Program-made: the position numbers and the translations under genes
Origin: Sulfurimonas sp.
GTDB taxonomy: Bacteria; Campylobacterota; Campylobacteria; Campylobacterales; Sulfurimonadaceae
Length of the DNA: 53,007 nucleotides
Reading direction: 5' to 3'
Assembly (NCBI RefSeq): GCF_019429335.1
Contig: NZ_JAHYJB010000011.1
Location: forward strand, 1-53,007
Notes under the pieces: model-generated
What the model was told of the DNA's origin: nothing
What the model saw: the letters and a program-made list of their open reading frames with translations, nothing else
The model's database searches: none
Shown: one piece after another, positions 21,991 through 53,007 of the stretch
How the letters are laid out: every line of letters starts with the position of its first letter
How positions within the stretch are numbered: position 1 is the stretch's first letter

Positions 21991-22051
21991 TACTTTTTAC
22001 CCGATTGCAGCGTAACATAGTTTTAGTAAAAAGTAAAACTCTGACCCGCTT
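21991..22051 (+). repeat. Element end: hairpin plus conserved motif, copy A
   Basis: TACTTTTTAC (21991-22000) is the inverted repeat of GTAAAAAGTA (22026-22035). This runs into a 22-base motif ending CTCTGACCCGCTT (22030-22051) that recurs inverted at 23154-23175 and, with one change, at 52696-52717. It lies just upstream of the dead RAYT gene, the place expected for a structured recognition end of a Y1-type element. Confidence 0.7.
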
Positions 22052-23119: not shown

Positions 23120-23242
23120 TTACCCTACATTTTTAATAAATTCTAGATAATTCAAGCGGGTCAGAGTTTTACTTTCAAAATCCAAAGAAACACTTTTATC
23201 TTCCGTAATAACTCTGCACTTCAAATCACTCAAATCAACCAC
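23120..23242 (-). CDS. Short frame after RhuM, possibly truncated gene
   Basis: A GTG directly after the RhuM stop (TGAGTG) opens a 40-codon frame (VVDLSDLKCRVITEDKSVSLD...) that reads through element-end copy B and stops soon after. The part before copy B looks protein-like, while the part after it is arbitrary. It is best read as a third operon gene cut short when the element end joined here. Function unknown. Confidence 0.35.
   Translation of the reverse strand: MVDLSDLKCRVITEDKSVSLDFESKTLTRLNYLEFIKNVG
23154..23175 (-). repeat. Element-end motif, copy B (inverted)
   Basis: Identical over 22 bases to copy A (22030-22051) but on the opposite strand. Copies A and B thus bracket about 1.1 kb that encodes the exported protein and the BamE-like lipoprotein. 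Confidence 0.7.
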
Positions 23243-46021: not shown

Positions 46022-46915
46022 ATGACTCAACTCGCACTTATAGGTCCTACAGCATCAGGAAAAAGTGATTTAGCAACTAAAATCGCCAAAAAAATAGATG
46101 CCTACATTCTCTCCATAGATTCACTAAGCATATACAAAGAGATTGACATAGTATCCGCCAAACCCTCTAAAGCAGAGCTAAGAGAGGTTAAACACTTCGG
46201 CATAGACCTGCTTAATCCTGATGAGTACTTCAGCGTTGATATTTTTATAAATCTATACAAAGATGTAATTTCTACATGTAAAAAAAATAAAAAGAACCTC
46301 ATCATCGTCGGAGGCACATCTTTTTACCTAAAATCGCTCGTTAGCGGGCTTTCAGAGATTCCAAAAATAACCAAAGAGATATCTTTACATGTAGAAAAAA
46401 AACTCAAAGATTTGCACGGGTGTTGGGAGATTTTATATAACTTGGACAAAGAGTATGTGAAAAACATATCGCCATCCGACAGATACAGAATAGAAAAAGC
46501 GCTCCTTATTTATGAGGCTTCTGGGCTTCCTCCAAGCGAATGGTTTAGGCTAAATCCTCCAAAACCGACAATAGAAAACCTCCCTATCTACAATATAGAA
46601 GTTGAGAGAGAAGTTTTAAAAGAGAGGATTAAAAAACGCACTCTAAAGATGGTTGAGTCTGGTTTAATAGATGAAGTTTGCCGACTAGAGCAGCGCTACA
46701 CAAGGCTTCCTCACTCCATGAACTCCATCGGGATAGTGGAAGTTTTGGAGTATCTTGATGGCAAAGTGACACTTGAGCAGATGATTGGAAATATCTCAAC
46801 TCACACGGCGCAGCTTGCAAAGAGACAGCAGACGTTCAACCGCACTCAGTTTGAAAATATCATCAGCGCGCCGCTTGAAGAGTTCTCAAATAAGCAAATC
46901 TGGGGTATAAGTTGA
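46022..46915 (+). CDS. miaA: tRNA dimethylallyltransferase
   Basis: A 297-residue enzyme that adds a dimethylallyl group to A37 of tRNAs reading UNN codons. It has LIGPTASGKSDLA (P-loop), SIDSLSIYKEIDI and the C-terminal helical SMNSIGIVEVLEYLDG..LAKRQQTFNRTQF. Its last ten residues (FSNKQIWGIS) differ from the alternative tail encoded at 48451-48496 after a duplicate of its 3' end. The stop overlaps the TTG start of the symporter gene. Confidence 0.95.
   Translation: MTQLALIGPTASGKSDLATKIAKKIDAYILSIDSLSIYKEIDIVSAKPSKAELREVKHFGIDLLNPDEYFSVDIFINLYKDVISTCKKNKKNLIIVGGTSFYLKSLVSGLSEIPKITKEISLHVEKKLKDLHGCWEILYNLDKEYVKNISPSDRYRIEKALLIYEASGLPPSEWFRLNPPKPTIENLPIYNIEVEREVLKERIKKRTLKMVESGLIDEVCRLEQRYTRLPHSMNSIGIVEVLEYLDGKVTLEQMIGNISTHTAQLAKRQQTFNRTQFENIISAPLEEFSNKQIWGIS
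46809..46878 (+). repeat. 70-bp direct repeat, copy 1 (in miaA)
   Basis: These 70 bases encode MiaA residues about 263-286 (AQLAKRQQTFNRTQFE...). They are identical to 48381-48450, 1,572 bp to the right. Identity stops sharply on both sides. Confidence 0.97.
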
Positions 46916-48147
46916 TAAAGAGAGTAAAAAAATATACAACCACAAACAGTTTGGTTCTTCTTGCCATTCTCTCTGGCGCGCTTTTTGGAGTTTTCTTCCC
47001 AGAGCTGGCTTTGGAGCAAAAAATCATAGGTTCTATATTTATTTCGTTTTTAAAAATGCTGGTTGTTCCGCTCGTTTTTGCAAGCATTTTTACGGCCATT
47101 ATAGGGCTTGGCTCTCTGGAGCATCTCAAAAAAATCGCTCTTAAAACACTTCTGCTCTACATCTTTACAACATCTCTGGCAGTTTTGGCGGCTATTGTTG
47201 CTATGAATATTTTTTCAGTGGGAGAAAGTGTAGAGAGTGCAGGACTTAGCTATGAAAAAGCAGCCGCGATAGAGCCTTTTTCTCTCTCGGCTATGGTGCT
47301 TAGTTTTATCCCGACAAATATTTTTTCAGCTCTGAGCGAGGGCTCTATGATGCAAATCATAGTGTTTGCAATACTGCTTGGAGTTGCTTCGCTTTACCTA
47401 AAACCAAGTGAGCAAAAATCTATGTTTGATTTTTTCTCAGCACTAAATGGCGCCATGTTGAAAATAGCAGGGTGGATTATTCTTCTGACACCCATCGGCG
47501 TTTTTAGTCTAATCTCTTACGTCATAGCCCAGCAGGGAATAGATGTTGTTTTGGGCTTGTGGAAATACATGCTGGTAGTTGTTGGTGTCATCGTTTTTCA
47601 CGCGCTCATTACTCTTCCCGCACTCTTGGCATACTTGGCGAAAGTCAATCCTTACCGCTATCTCTCAGACGTACGAGAAGCTTCCATTATGGCATTTTCA
47701 ACCGCTTCTTCAGCGGCTACACTTCCCGTGTCTATGAAAGTAGTTAAAGAGATGGGTGGAGTAGATGGAAAAACTGCCTCTTTTGTTCTGCCTTTGGGTG
47801 CTACAGTTTCTATGGACGGAACGGCTGCATATCTCTGTGTTGCAGTACTATACATCGCAAATCTTGCAGGTGTGGAGCTTGCTTTTGGCGAGCAGGTTTT
47901 GCTTGGAGTTACCGTTGTAGCTTTGAGTATAGGTGTTGCAGCACTGCCTAGTGCCTCTTTGGTTATGCTGGTTGTTATTTTAAATCAAGTTGGTTTGCCT
48001 GTTGAGTATATCGCCCTGATTGTCGCGGTGGATAGAATTTTAGATATGTGCAGAACTTCGCTAAATGTCACTTCTGATTTGGTTGTGACAAAGATTGTCG
48101 ATGAGTATGAAAAAAGAGGCCGCACGCTCTCAAGCACCGCCTCTTAA
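46912..48147 (+). CDS. DAACS family dicarboxylate/amino acid symporter
   Basis: A 411-residue membrane protein of the dicarboxylate/amino acid:cation symporter family (GltP/DctA type). Typical parts are FISFLKMLVVPLVFASIFTAI, the serine-rich AFSTASSAATLPVS hairpin, the SMDGTAAY motif and the final DRILDMCRTSLNVTSD. The exact substrate (glutamate, aspartate or C4-dicarboxylate) cannot be given. It starts with TTG overlapping the miaA TGA, a coupled start. Its 3' end overlaps the convergent sirtuin fragment by four bases. Confidence 0.93.
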   Translation: MIKRVKKYTTTNSLVLLAILSGALFGVFFPELALEQKIIGSIFISFLKMLVVPLVFASIFTAIIGLGSLEHLKKIALKTLLLYIFTTSLAVLAAIVAMNIFSVGESVESAGLSYEKAAAIEPFSLSAMVLSFIPTNIFSALSEGSMMQIIVFAILLGVASLYLKPSEQKSMFDFFSALNGAMLKIAGWIILLTPIGVFSLISYVIAQQGIDVVLGLWKYMLVVVGVIVFHALITLPALLAYLAKVNPYRYLSDVREASIMAFSTASSAATLPVSMKVVKEMGGVDGKTASFVLPLGATVSMDGTAAYLCVAVLYIANLAGVELAFGEQVLLGVTVVALSIGVAALPSASLVMLVVILNQVGLPVEYIALIVAVDRILDMCRTSLNVTSDLVVTKIVDEYEKRGRTLSSTAS

Positions 48148-48380
48148 TTTAAAAAAACTTTTATCTCCTTCGCTATCTCATCAACGGCTTCGATCGCTTT
48201 TTTGTAAAGCACTTTTGAGAAGTAGGCGTCGTTTATGGCAACGCTTGGCTCATAGTTGTTTAAAATCGACCTTGTAGCAAACTGCGCCATTGTGTTTACG
48301 CCTATGACATTGCCACTTGTGCCGATAACGACAAAGAGTTCGCAATCCTGAATATGTCTGTTTAGCTCCTCGTACATGGA
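48144..48380 (-). pseudogene. C-terminal fragment of a sirtuin gene (cobB, copy A)
   Basis: The frame encodes the last ~78 residues of a SIR2-type deacetylase (MYEELNRHIQDCELFVV...) and is closely related to the complete copy at 49914-50624. Eight amino acids differ, all in the last 35, and there are several silent changes. At 48380 the similarity ends in a short stretch shared with miaA, and the antisense of the miaA repeat follows. The NAD-binding start is absent, so it cannot be functional. Confidence 0.92.
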
Positions 48381-48496
48381 CGCAGCTTGCAAAGAGACAG
48401 CAGACGTTCAACCGCACTCAGTTTGAAAATATCATCAGCGCGCCGCTTGAGGATTTGGAAGAACTTATACTATCTTCTATACATTCTCAAAAGTAA
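48381..48496 (+). pseudogene. Duplicate 3' end of miaA with alternative tail
   Basis: The first 70 bases repeat miaA 46809-46878 exactly. The frame then continues as DLEELILSSIHSQK to a stop at 48494-48496, a tail that looks like an ordinary MiaA C-terminus. No start or upstream part of miaA is present. The tail overlaps the end of the convergent PAS-GGDEF gene by about 20 bases, as expected if that gene originally lay after this version of miaA. Confidence 0.88.
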
Positions 48497-49487
48497 TCGT
48501 ATTCTTTACGTTTTTTTTACTTTTATATAGAGCCGAATCAGCAATATTTAACAGCTCTCGAACAGCAATTTCTCTTCTTAATATATCCACATGAACAACA
48601 CCAAAACTCATAGTTATAAATTTTGATATATCACTAAACGAATGTTCTATATTCAGTTCCTCTATATCTTTTTTTGCTTTTTGAACAAGCTTTAACGCAC
48701 TATCTTTAGGTGTTACAATCAAAATGAAAACAAACTCCTCTCCTCCATATCTAGCTACAATATCTGTTTGTCGGTTGAAAGTCTGTTTTAAAACATTGGC
48801 TACGGAGCGTATTGCCTCATCTCCTTTTATATGACCATAGTTATCGTTATACAATTTAAAATTATCTATATCGCATATACCCAATGTAAAACTGGTACCA
48901 CCCCTCGATGCTCTGTCATATTCAATCTGCAGATTATCATCGAAATATCTTCTATTATACAAACCGCTCAATCCATCCGTAGTAGCAAGTCTGTCAAGTT
49001 CAACATTCCTTTGATTTAACTCTTGCAGCATTGCGACTTCCGTACTAATATCTTTAAAGACAACTACAGCTCCATCGTCTTCAAAAGGGGAGATGCTAAG
49101 GCTAAGATGGATTGAAGTTCCATCTTTTTTAGTAATTTGCTTTTTTACAACTCTCTTTTTTTTATCTTTTATAGTTTTAGATACCGGGCATGTCTCTTTT
49201 GCATATGTGTGATTTTTTAATGCACCATCATAAAACATAGTCTCAACGCTTCTACCTAAGACCTCGTGTTTTAGCATATCTAACATCTCAAGAGCAGTCT
49301 CATTTATGGATAAGCAGTTTCCATTGTTATCAACAGTGTAGACACCATAACCTACCGCATCTAACAATAAATTGTTTTGTAACTGGTGACGTAATCTATT
49401 ATTCAAACTATTACTGTAAAATTTACTTTTTTGTAATAAATATAAAACTAATATAATCAATAAAAGTAAAGCTGTCTCTGTAATCAC
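48477..49487 (-). CDS. PAS-GGDEF diguanylate cyclase
   Basis: A 336-residue membrane-anchored protein: one N-terminal membrane segment (2-19), a PAS sensor domain (about 38-155), a coiled linker and a GGDEF domain (about 165-336). The signature ARYGGEEF is intact and is preceded, with five residues between, by the RQTD inhibitory site, so an active, product-inhibited c-di-GMP synthase is likely. It is divergent from the XRE-like gene and came with the inserted block. Confidence 0.92.
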   Translation of the reverse strand: MITETALLLLIILVLYLLQKSKFYSNSLNNRLRHQLQNNLLLDAVGYGVYTVDNNGNCLSINETALEMLDMLKHEVLGRSVETMFYDGALKNHTYAKETCPVSKTIKDKKKRVVKKQITKKDGTSIHLSLSISPFEDDGAVVVFKDISTEVAMLQELNQRNVELDRLATTDGLSGLYNRRYFDDNLQIEYDRASRGGTSFTLGICDIDNFKLYNDNYGHIKGDEAIRSVANVLKQTFNRQTDIVARYGGEEFVFILIVTPKDSALKLVQKAKKDIEELNIEHSFSDISKFITMSFGVVHVDILRREIAVRELLNIADSALYKSKKNVKNTITFENV

Positions 49488-49514
49488 CCTTGCAATCTCC
49501 TTTCATGTAAAATA

Positions 49515-49540
49515 TACTATATATAGTAATACTATATATA
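49515..49540. promoter_or_regulatory. Paired palindromic boxes, possible operator
   Basis: A perfect 14-bp palindrome TACTATATATAGTA (49515-49528) is followed 15 bp later by a second TACTATATATA (49530-49540). They sit between the divergent PAS-GGDEF and XRE-like genes and would suit binding of a dimeric regulator such as the adjacent XRE-like protein. Their AT-only content means they could also be ordinary promoter DNA. Confidence 0.4.
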
Positions 49541-49641
49541 ATATTGTTATCTATGATTATAAAATATTATAATTCTAGCCAGTTGTAATTATATATTTGT
49601 AAACTTAAAAAGTTTAATATTAACGTTAAAAAGTAGTTGAA

Positions 49642-49917
49642 ATGAAAAAACTTTCCATAACCGATGAAGAAGAACTAAGAGATTTCTATAAAACAGTCTC
49701 TGAAAATGTCAGAGCAATAAGAAAACAGAGAAATAAGCCTCAGCTTGATTTGGTCTTAGAGATGGGTCTTAGATCAATATCATTTTACAGTAAATGCGAA
49801 AATCTAAAAGATAATCACCATTTTAACCTAGAGCATATATATAAAATAGCGGTCGCACTCAATGTTGATATTTTAGAGTTTTTTAACGGTATCAGTACTA
49901 TAAAAGAAGATCCCTAA
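49642..49917 (+). CDS. XRE-like helix-turn-helix regulator
   Basis: A 91-residue protein with a Cro/C1-type five-helix pattern (VSENVRAIRKQRNKPQLDLVLEMG, then SISFYSKCE and the last helices KIAVALNVDILEFF). It probably binds DNA and may act on its own divergent promoter region. The stop overlaps the end of the convergent sirtuin gene by four bases. It resembles short XRE regulators found across this phylum. Confidence 0.78.
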   Translation: MKKLSITDEEELRDFYKTVSENVRAIRKQRNKPQLDLVLEMGLRSISFYSKCENLKDNHHFNLEHIYKIAVALNVDILEFFNGISTIKEDP

Positions 49918-50624
49918 CTTAAAAAACTCTCTATCTCCTGCAATATCTCATCAACGGCTTCGGTCGCTTTTTTGTAGAGCACTTTTGAGAAGTAGGCATC
50001 ATCTATGGCACTGCTAGGCTCATAGTTGTTTAAAATCGACCTTGTAGCAAACTGCGCCATTGTATTTACCCCAATGACATTGCCGCTTGTGCCGATGACG
50101 ACGAAAAGCTCACAATCCTGAATATGTCTGTTTAGCTCCTCATACATGGGCGCTGCTTCGCCGAAAAAGACGATGTTTGGTCTAAGTTTTGAGTTACATG
50201 TAAGACATCTTCCGCCGTTAAACTCATTTTGATTTTTATAACCTATGTCAAAAACTTTTCCGCAGTTTGAGTTTTGACATCTAAGCTGTGTCAAAAAACC
50301 GTGCAGATGAATAACATCCTCGGATTTAAGCCCTGCTTTTTCAAAAAGATTGTCCACGTTTTGAGTAATAACCGCTATCTCTTTTTTGTACATGTTCTTT
50401 AGCTCGGCTACTCTTTTGTGTGCGTAGTTTGGCTCTTTGCTCTCTAGCTCCGCTCTTCTTTTGTCGTAAAACTCTATGGTTGCATCTTCGTGCTTTTGCA
50501 TGCTGTCGTAGTTGCAAACAACGCTGACATCGTACTCATCCCAAAGCCCGCCGCTGTCCCTAAATGTACTTATGCCCGACTCAGCACTTATCCCCGCACC
50601 GCTTAAAATCAAAACTTTTGCCAT
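49914..50624 (-). CDS. cobB: SIR2-family NAD-dependent deacylase
   Basis: A 236-residue sirtuin that removes acyl groups from lysines using NAD. It has the NAD-binding start LILSGAGISAESGISTFRD, the catalytic ITQNVDNLFEKAG..VIHLHGF histidine, two zinc-binding cysteine pairs (CQNSNCGK and CLTCNS) and FGEAAP. Residues Y and R of the class III (desuccinylase) type are seen in FYDKRRAELE. All catalytic parts are intact. Fragments of a second, diverged copy lie on both sides (48144-48380 and 52724-52775). It follows the RhuM gene by 13 bases in the same direction. Confidence 0.93.
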   Translation of the reverse strand: MAKVLILSGAGISAESGISTFRDSGGLWDEYDVSVVCNYDSMQKHEDATIEFYDKRRAELESKEPNYAHKRVAELKNMYKKEIAVITQNVDNLFEKAGLKSEDVIHLHGFLTQLRCQNSNCGKVFDIGYKNQNEFNGGRCLTCNSKLRPNIVFFGEAAPMYEELNRHIQDCELFVVIGTSGNVIGVNTMAQFATRSILNNYEPSSAIDDAYFSKVLYKKATEAVDEILQEIESFLS

Positions 50625-50637
50625 CTGTTTTTCTCCG

Positions 50638-51642
50638 TCAGACCTTAATTTTTAACATCTTCGCCGTAGCCTCTAAATGCTCTATAAAATCTTCTTCTAC
50701 TTTTGAGAGTTCATTTTTTGTTTTTTCTTTGTATGACATGTACTCTTTATTTACCTTTTCTATAGCTTTTTCATGGCTGATTGTGCCAGCGTGAGAGAGT
50801 ATATCTTTACCCGTCATTTTCAAAAAATCATCCAATCTTGCTATCCAGTCTTTCATGTACATCGGGGTTTTACTCATCGCTTGAATCTCTGCCATCTCTA
50901 TATATGCCGTTACCATACGATTTAAAAGAGTTAGTTCATCAACATTCAGATAGTTTTTGGCTATCTCTGCTTCTTGTTTTGTTGGTTTGCTGCCTTTAAA
51001 GTTGGTAAGCCCAATATTTGGCTTTGTGCTGTCTGCTCTTTGATAAACTATCTCCGCTGCCGTGTTGCCATGAACTGCCCAGTGCATTTTGTTCTGCACC
51101 GTTTGAAAAAAGAGCATAGAACTCTCCGCTTTTGGGTCGTAGTCTATACTTGTGGCATAGATGTCTAGTACCTTTCTCCAAAATACTTTCTCACTGCTTC
51201 GTATATCTCGGATGCGTTCTAAAAGTTCTTCAAAATAGTTTCCGCCACCTGCTTGTTTCAAGAGTTCATCATTCATAGTAAAACCTTTGATGATGTACTC
51301 TTTGAGCCGTGCTGTTGCCCATTGACGGAACTTCGTACCTTGAAGCGATTTTACTCTGTAGCCTATGGAGATGATGACATCTAGGTTGTAGAAGTTAGTA
51401 GGTTTTGTAGAAAAATCGGAATTTCCGATTTTTCTCATGCTCTCATCTTTTTCAAGCTCAGCTTCTTTATAAATATTTAAAATATGTTCATTAATTGTTG
51501 AGCGGCTTTTTTGAAAAAGTTCTGCCATTTGGTCTATATTTATCCAAACAGTTTCATCTTCAAGTCGTGTTTGGATTTTGGTCTGCCCGTCTTCGGTTTG
51601 GTAGATGAGGATGTTTGATTGTGAGTTCATTTTATTTTTCAT
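50638..51642 (-). CDS. RhuM family protein 2
   Basis: A 334-residue RhuM protein with an N-terminal winged-helix-like region (TVWINIDQMAELFQKSRSTINEHI), the core DVIISIGYRVKSLQGTKFRQWA and a helical C-terminal half. It is colinear with the RhuM at 23243-24259 over its whole length. It starts inside the end of the RhuM-PLD gene (11-base overlap) and is followed by cobB after 13 bases, so the three are probably one transcript. Its biochemical role is unknown. Confidence 0.88.
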   Translation of the reverse strand: MKNKMNSQSNILIYQTEDGQTKIQTRLEDETVWINIDQMAELFQKSRSTINEHILNIYKEAELEKDESMRKIGNSDFSTKPTNFYNLDVIISIGYRVKSLQGTKFRQWATARLKEYIIKGFTMNDELLKQAGGGNYFEELLERIRDIRSSEKVFWRKVLDIYATSIDYDPKAESSMLFFQTVQNKMHWAVHGNTAAEIVYQRADSTKPNIGLTNFKGSKPTKQEAEIAKNYLNVDELTLLNRMVTAYIEMAEIQAMSKTPMYMKDWIARLDDFLKMTGKDILSHAGTISHEKAIEKVNKEYMSYKEKTKNELSKVEEDFIEHLEATAKMLKIKV

Positions 51643-52504
51643 GCTTCAACCTCTGTAAAATCTCCAAAGCTTCCATCTCAAACTTAGAAAATGCAAACCA
51701 CTTTTTGCCGAGGTCTTTGAGACTTGTTCCTATGTGGTAAATCTCTTTTTCATCAAGTATCAAAAATCTGTCGTGAGCTTTTTTGAACTCATATAGTTCT
51801 ATATTTTGATACTGGGAATTGTATTTTTGAAAATCCAAACGCAGCTGTTTTGAAATGCTCTGAGTGTAGATTTTTATCTTTAAATTTTGGTATTTACTAA
51901 AGAGTGTAAAAACCGTATCGTCTATGTAGTTATCTATAATAACCACTTCATCTTTTGCACTTTTTAACAAATCGTTCACAAAAATATAGGCATCATACAT
52001 CTGCCCGTCAAAAAGTATTCCTTGTTTTTGTTTTAGCGTTGTGCTTTCAAGTGAATTTGAGATATTTTCTACTTTTGACTTTAAAAGCACCACCTCATTT
52101 TCAAGCTCTTTAAATCTTTGGTTTGTTATTTTTTCGGAGTTTATTACATATCCGTCGGTAATGTAATTTTTGAGTACTTTTGTTGCCCATTGTCTGAACT
52201 GTACCCCTTTTTGCGATTTTACCCGATAGCCCACTGAAATAATGACATCCAAACTATAGTATTCAACATTGTATGTTTTGCCATCATGAGCAGTTGTCGC
52301 AAAATTTGCGACAACTGAAAACTTTTCAAGTTCCCCATCACTAAATACATTGCCGATATGCTTCCCTATGGTTTTTACATCTCTACCGAATAGCTCTGAA
52401 ATTTGATGTCTATTGAGCCATACCGTATCATTTTTAACAGACACATCAAGCTCAAGCTCACCGTCATTATAAATAATCAAATCTGATTTATTTAGTTTAT
52501 CCAT
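51632..52504 (-). CDS. RhuM-like protein with phospholipase-D-like C-terminus
   Basis: A 290-residue protein. Residues 1-130 are a RhuM-type N-terminus (TVWLNRHQISELFGRDVKTI, then VIISVGYRVKSQKGVQFRQWA). A coiled linker (about 125-155) leads to a domain (about 165-285) whose DEVVIIDNYIDDTVF and AHDRFLILDEKEIYHIGTS resemble one half of a phospholipase D-type fold, with HxR in place of the usual HxK. Such domains in defence or mobile proteins can be nucleases. A fusion of this kind with RhuM is unusual. Confidence 0.8.
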   Translation of the reverse strand: MDKLNKSDLIIYNDGELELDVSVKNDTVWLNRHQISELFGRDVKTIGKHIGNVFSDGELEKFSVVANFATTAHDGKTYNVEYYSLDVIISVGYRVKSQKGVQFRQWATKVLKNYITDGYVINSEKITNQRFKELENEVVLLKSKVENISNSLESTTLKQKQGILFDGQMYDAYIFVNDLLKSAKDEVVIIDNYIDDTVFTLFSKYQNLKIKIYTQSISKQLRLDFQKYNSQYQNIELYEFKKAHDRFLILDEKEIYHIGTSLKDLGKKWFAFSKFEMEALEILQRLKHEK

Positions 52505-52601
52505 TTACTTTGTTCCTTTTATTCCCGTTCTCATCAAAACTTACGACATGTAGAAATAGTTTTTTTATAGTCTCTTCATTAATAACTGATATTTTATGCA
52601 T
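52497..52601 (-). CDS. Possible small upstream protein
   Basis: A 34-codon frame (MHKISVINEETIKKLFLHVV...) with AGGA six bases before the ATG. It ends eight bases inside the RhuM-PLD gene, as coupled genes do. It has no recognisable family and may be a leader peptide or the remnant of a larger gene. Confidence 0.35.
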   Translation of the reverse strand: MHKISVINEETIKKLFLHVVSFDENGNKRNKVNG

Positions 52602-52695
52602 AACCAATCCTAGATACTTTTATTTATCATGGCGTAAAAATAAAAATTCATTTAAAAATATGACATTTTGCAATGATTTTTTCTATATGTAGTAA

Positions 52696-52717
52696 AAAGT
52701 GAAACTCTGACCCGCTT
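52696..52717 (+). repeat. Element-end motif, copy C
   Basis: Matches copies A (22030-22051) and B (23154-23175) at 21 of 22 bases. The similarity to copy A extends to the left for a few more bases (AGTAAAAAGT). It directly joins the truncated cobB start at about 52722. Confidence 0.75.
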
Positions 52718-52723
52718 TATCCA

Positions 52724-52775
52724 TTCCCGACTCAGCGCTTATTCCCGCACCGCTTAAAATCAAAACTTTTGCCAT
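52724..52775 (-). pseudogene. N-terminal fragment of a sirtuin gene (cobB, copy A)
   Basis: The frame encodes MAKVLILSGAGISAES plus one or two residues and then runs into the element-end motif and stops. This and its upstream flank (to 52806) match 50572-50655 at about 80 of 84 positions, including the end of an upstream RhuM-like gene (KIKV then stop). It is the missing front of the sirtuin gene whose tail is at 48144-48380; the middle ~140 codons are gone. Confidence 0.9.
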
Positions 52776-52786
52776 CTGTTTTTCTC

Positions 52787-52820
52787 CATCAGACCTTAAT
52801 TTTTAATGCCTTTATATCTT
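52787..52820 (-). pseudogene. End fragment of a RhuM-like gene
   Basis: A short frame reading DIKALKIKV then stop sits just upstream of the cobB fragment, at the same place as the end of RhuM (MLKIKV then stop) upstream of the complete cobB. It suggests that copy A of cobB also followed a RhuM-like gene. Confidence 0.4.
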
Positions 52821-52824
52821 TTAT

Positions 52825-52900
52825 TTATTGAGACCACTTATTAATATCTTTAAAAATTTCATCATTGTTAAAATCATAAACTGCAAAAAACGGTTCAAAT
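52825..52900 (-). pseudogene. C-terminal fragment of unknown gene
   Basis: A frame entering from the repeat array reads RFEPFFAVYDFNNDEIFKDI and ends NKWSQ then stop (52825-52827). Composition looks like a genuine protein end, cut off by the repeat array. I do not recognise it. Confidence 0.35.
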
Positions 52901-52996
52901 CGGACACTAATGTCGGTTGAGTTCGGACAGTGATGTCGGTTCTAATCGGACAGTGGTGTCGGAAATGATTCGGACACTTTGGAGTAAAAACCGACA
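52901..52996. repeat. IS21-like terminal repeat array
   Basis: Three near-palindromic units of the form CGGACA-N4-TGTCGG begin at 52901, 52924 and 52947 (period 23), followed by CGGACA at 52971 and CCGACA at 52991-52996. Read from the right end the sequence begins TGTCGGTTTTTACTCC. This pattern of a terminal TGTCGG with regularly spaced internal copies is that of IS21-family ends, where they bind the transposase. No istA/istB genes are inside the window. Confidence 0.6.
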
Positions 52997-53007
52997 CTTA
53001 AGTTTAA

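Follow-up and report, generated by a model that had tools for sequence, protein, structure and literature searches.

The interval between miaA and cobB in this Sulfurimonas genome is probably a partial merodiploid, located at an insertion hotspot and made by recombination with the DNA of relatives. The window, i.e. the whole stretch of 53,007 nucleotides that was analyzed, displays the following gene order according to Pfam: miaA (IPPT), a gltP-like gene (SDF), a 3' remnant of cobB, a second miaA end, a PAS-GGDEF gene, an XRE-like gene, cobB (SIR2), two RhuM genes and a 5' remnant of cobB. Beyond this last remnant lie a short stretch and then the end of an insertion sequence. Pfam thus upholds the order proposed from the miaA end to the full cobB in a first-pass annotation, which had read it as two diverged miaA-cobB alleles joined together. 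In substance, the analysis supports the idea that two diverged versions of one locus were joined, but we do not observe a clean fusion of whole alleles: the diverged versions are combined in a mosaic with a crossover and joints. The order of events, the donor and the mechanism are what we infer for this joining.

The complete miaA gene (46022..46915, + strand; Pfam IPPT 1e-63) has its end repeated downstream. The two copies of this direct repeat, 46809..46878 and 48381..48450 (both on the + strand), had been described as perfect over 70 bp and are indeed identical at 70/70 positions; when the comparison is extended to 46809-46884/48381-48456, they are 97% identical over 76 nt, all of the first 70 nt being the same. 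Translation also agrees with the former claim that the two ends encode different tails, EEFSNKQIWGIS and EDLEELILSSIHSQK. The tail of the complete gene is altered after codon ~286, at the start of the gltP segment, and is different from that of every relative. The second copy belongs to a fragment (48381..48497, + strand) that is of resident type up to 48450 and then continues with EDLEELILSSIHSQK, which is the tail encoded in G087, a MAG named Kmv11 with the gene order ubiA-miaA-GGDEF-XRE-cobB. Over its 70 nt, this copy displays 0 differences from the first one, 6 from the nearest other relative and 8 from G087. The 8 mismatches with G087 all lie inside 48394-48436 and are followed by a single one in the next ~245 bp, the last difference in the miaA end being at 48436 and the next at 48508. 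Such a switch from resident to G087 sequence places a homologous crossover at about 48437-48450. It occurred without loss of sequence, and it concerns the GGDEF-XRE side and not the gltP unit described below, whose repeat copies are identical and thus give no position for a crossover. The miaA gene of the window shares only 82% identity with that of G087. Altogether, this comparison shows a G087-like allele (miaA tail-GGDEF-XRE-cobB) occupying the resident frame, with a crossover near the miaA end.

The cobB gene is present as one full copy and two remnants. The full-length gene (49914..50624, - strand), which encodes a Sir2-type deacylase (Pfam SIR2 2.6e-41), is 96% identical to that of G087 at the nucleotide level and is mosaic relative to it, with differences clustered at 50070-50298. 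The 3' remnant (48144..48388, - strand), delineated by repeat comparison and translation, corresponds to the last ~81 codons and its reading frame is open. The duplication announced between 48144-48380 and 49914-50150 is present at ~89% identity (89% over 244 nt for 48145-48388/49915-50158), and translation of the two C-terminal parts yields the eight residue differences already reported. As had been argued, a recent simple tandem duplication can be rejected, given the 89% identity of the cobB copies and the difference in cargo. In a check for relaxed selection, the changes private to the 3' remnant, few in number, amounted to 5 synonymous and 5 non-synonymous ones. A repeat search also revealed a third repeat pair, 95% identical over 84 nt, that links the cobB 5' end with 31 bp of upstream sequence (50572..50655) to a 5' remnant made of 17 codons and the same 31 bp upstream (52723..52806, - strand). 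The first-pass annotation had hinted at this pair only by its junction at 52722. The 3' and 5' remnants do not overlap each other. No further copies of these cobB and miaA pieces were found elsewhere in the whole assembly (2,060,673 bp, 73 contigs), so that the middle of the split cobB is missing from the genome assembly. The repeats are far beyond chance expectation.

Between these gene ends lies the cargo. The gene of the gltP-like dicarboxylate symporter (46912..48147, + strand; Pfam SDF 1.5e-114) begins with a TTG start that overlaps the miaA stop. Its nearest relatives are found in G086 (78%) and G155 (76%), in neither case near miaA, and the homologues in G087, G005 and G012 are only ~68% identical and located elsewhere. 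The PAS-GGDEF diguanylate cyclase gene (48477..49487, - strand; Pfam GGDEF 2e-42) has a counterpart with 95% amino acid identity at the equivalent position in G087. It is followed by the gene of a small XRE-like HTH protein (49642..49917, + strand), with a weak HTH_19 match (8e-4, below the Pfam cut-off) and relatives in G087 and G012. The whole GGDEF-XRE segment is 97% identical to G087 at the nucleotide level. On the other side of cobB, rhuM1 (50638..51642, - strand; Pfam RhuM 1.9e-106) is adjacent to cobB in G004 too (94% amino acid identity), and rhuM2 (51632..52504, - strand), also recognized by Pfam, is 90% identical in amino acids to a gene in the copy of the hotspot carried by G021.

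Two novel joints delimit this arrangement. At the first one, J1 (48381..48388), the cobB remnant runs into the miaA end through the 8-bp CGCAGCTT, common to the miaA end and to cobB as it reads in G005. Because the resident cobB beyond J1 has been lost, this microhomology is deduced from relatives: at the equivalent place of cobB, CGCAGCTT is matched at 8/8 positions in G005 and at 7/8 in G087 and in the full copy of the window. Random joints between miaA and cobB share at least 8 bases with a frequency of 2e-4. At the second joint, J2 (52722..52723), the sequence beyond rhuM2 meets codon 18 of the second cobB 5' end; here microhomology is not assessable because the donor side, 52603-52722, is without relative. 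J1 and J2 each adjoin a conserved gene end that is directly repeated. Two units can be drawn on this basis, each delimited by one of the novel joints and by directly repeated sequence from the end of a resident gene. The first, unit 1 (46809-48380, 1,572 bp), consists of the 70 bp of the miaA end, gltP and the 3' part of cobB, and unit 2 (50572-52722, 2,151 bp) consists of the cobB 5' end, rhuM1 and rhuM2. The core between them is miaA end-GGDEF-XRE-cobB.

The nearest genomes are all from Sulfurimonas, and 135 congeneric genomes were searched for the allele arrangements. Genus-wide, nuoN-TPR and miaA-ubiA frame the locus, and the genes between them vary. The resident frame reads nuoN-TPR ... 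cobB >< miaA-ubiA. cobB directly adjoins miaA in G136, G109, G005, G151 and G021; of these, G005 and G021 carry different genes in the interval from TPR to cobB. In G062, G083, G025, G032 and G076, TPR adjoins miaA and no cobB was found between them. G004 contains TPR-...-rhuM1-cobB, with miaA on a separate contig, and provides a precedent for the adjacency of rhuM1 and cobB. Across species, the cargo of this hotspot includes RhuM (PADLOC candidate PDC-S05), GajB-like proteins, PDC-S06 and others. The first-pass annotation had predicted that each allele would occur alone in some relatives: miaA-GGDEF-XRE-cobB does so in G087, but miaA-gltP-cobB occurs alone in none of the 135 congeneric genomes.

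Several side observations concern the same locus in relatives. A divergent GGDEF and XRE pair also follows miaA in G012 (L074:3578-4907; 50% and 76% amino acid identity), which suggests that these two genes (48477-49917 in the window) may move or work as a pair. The contigs of three close relatives end within the first ~100 bp of cobB, namely L063 and L064 (G087), L067 (G151) and L066 (G136). The break in G087 falls inside cobB, with a coverage of 260 for one piece and 68 for the other; strain variation upstream of cobB, to which this contrast points, would be expected to produce it. The contig tips of the G136 MAG (L065:1-100 and L066:1-62) look chimeric, with fragments of distant genes fused to cobB or TPR sequence. 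In G136, a gltP fragment and a second start of cobB sit together at a contig tip; they could have been taken for an independent rearrangement, but this tip looks chimeric as well.

The contig ends with one end of an IS21-like insertion sequence (52881..53007), the other end of which is found on contig C45 (C45:1-127, L128). The end in the window begins with TGCAAAAAACGG, the start of C45 carries the other end, ..CCGTTATATGCA, and the ends of the element read TGCAAAAAACGG/TGCATATAACGG. CATAAAC flanks both ends and constitutes a 7-bp target duplication. The IS21-like end is common to about 11 other contig ends in the genome. On C45 it is followed by the end of a GajB-like gene, a rhuM fragment, a dksA-like gene, the TPR gene and nuoN.

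One would wonder whether the whole arrangement could be an artefact, a metagenome assembler having misjoined two co-existing strain alleles. The genome is probably a mud-volcano MAG, possibly bin KA11 from Karabetova Gora, assembled with metaSPAdes from 150-nt reads (PMC8470020), and the chimeric-looking tips of the G136 contigs illustrate that such errors do occur. However, exact overlaps between contig ends reach 126-127 bp, so that the final k was about 127; the 70- and 84-bp repeats fall below k, were thus unable to branch the graph and would have been resolved. As the sides of J1 and J2 share about 8 bp or less, these joints must presumably exist in the reads. They are also distant from the contig tips, J2 being ~285 bp from the end, and the target duplication of the IS21-like element connects C45 to this contig, in agreement with the conserved gene order. 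An assembly artefact thus appears unlikely. A somewhat better case, although still an improbable one, can be made for a preformed segment of 4.34 kb (48381-52722) from a conspecific strain, which would have taken the place of the middle part of the resident cobB via two illegitimate joints. Indeed, this segment is flanked exactly by 48144-48388 and 52723-52806, which correspond to the 3' and 5' parts of a single gene, and the absence of the cobB middle from the assembly is what such a replacement would leave. On the other hand, two independent illegitimate joints would be required, and the donor would need to have acquired, by a prior recombination, a G087-type tail on its resident-type miaA end. 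This scenario would be a special case of allele joining and, at this low probability, the main alternative to a unit-by-unit entry.

Insertions of a mobile element carrying the cargo, repeated at gene ends, are the least credible explanation, and we give it very little weight. The hotspot with its variable cargo, the proximity of the IS21-like element and the presence 7 bp before J2 of a 20-bp repeat, AAAGTRAAACTCTGACCCGC, with three copies all on this contig, would fit with it. However, neither unit contains an integrase or a transposase, no target duplications or matching inverted ends were noticed at J1 and J2, and the units end in pieces of resident genes. In addition, the repeat copies diverge by 0-11%, as expected for homologous exchange between relatives. 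Hardly more probable is the idea that the 70- and 84-bp repeats are recurrent switches, excising and re-inserting the gltP unit as a 1,572-bp circle and the rhuM unit as a 2,151-bp circle. If true, it would mean that the population swaps small cassettes at the hotspot through gene-end homology, without an integrase.

Taken together, the mosaic G087-type core, the gene-end repeats, the putative microhomology at J1 and the variable hotspot favor recombination of two partial alleles. We propose that each unit entered via a homologous crossover within the gene end that is repeated, the other junction being illegitimate. Possible routes would be homology-facilitated illegitimate recombination (HFIR), a single crossover with a recircularized fragment, or a tandem duplication at microhomology followed by replacement of one copy. 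The DNA would most likely have entered by natural transformation, a plausible route; the genome encodes a ComEC-type competence protein, which is generic and not specific evidence. The outcome would be that one intact miaA and one intact cobB were kept and cargo genes were gained, the remnants being by-products without function of their own.

A parallel can be drawn with HFIR, described in three species with natural competence, among them Streptococcus pneumoniae and Acinetobacter baylyi, where the joints typically display 3-10 bp of microhomology (PMC3240628). The likeness lies in foreign cargo beside a conserved gene, a homologous joint on one side and, on the other, an illegitimate one, with putative short microhomology (8 bp at J1). 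A homologous side is found here at the miaA end, ~48437-48450, on the GGDEF-XRE side. Unlike our case, which is inferred from one genome, HFIR usually deletes recipient DNA: no recipient deletion of similar size is observed in the window, the gene ends being duplicated instead, and the missing cobB middle counts as a deletion only if both remnants derive from one resident gene. Single crossovers of recircularized DNA are known to generate partial duplications, for example of lacZ (PMC3240628). They would leave a direct repeat of the homologous segment and one novel joint, which is what the 70- and 84-bp repeats with J1 and J2 display, unit 1 then corresponding to a putative circle of 1,572 bp. 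Transformation also generates merodiploids and tandem duplications of 100-900 kb bounded by long repeats (PMC3784515). As in the latter, two alleles of a locus would stand side by side in the chromosome after DNA uptake, but the scale is 1.6-4.3 kb here, with short repeats and a microhomology joint. Finally, the nuoN-TPR / miaA-ubiA interval with its variable cargo resembles the integration and defense hotspots located between conserved genes, except that no integrase is seen and exchange seems to use the flanking homology.

The locus is thus a well-preserved and unusually legible example of a known recombination process, already described in laboratory work, and not a new system. It shows, in a natural setting, how environmental bacteria acquire genes beside conserved ones without destroying the latter. 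Joining that is part homologous and part illegitimate leaves readable scars at gene ends, which could be searched systematically as a measure of one-sided recombination at hotspots without integrase.

Two minor observations concern the contig and its continuation. The 20-bp motif AAAGTRAAACTCTGACCCGC lies at 22030-22049, 23156-23175 (- strand) and 52696-52715; one copy is beside split ORFs that presumably resemble a REP-associated tyrosine transposase, one just before J2 and one by a rhuM gene. A repeat-element origin of J2 is unsupported, as the motif was not found in 40 relatives and has only these three copies in the genome. As to the IS21-like element, it is located close to the C-terminal end of a gene for a GajB-like (Gabija) helicase. 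In L128:1-1000, the end of this gene (PADLOC GajB 1.4e-48) is followed by short ORFs and the neighboring gene looks degraded, so that the Gabija-like system is probably broken.
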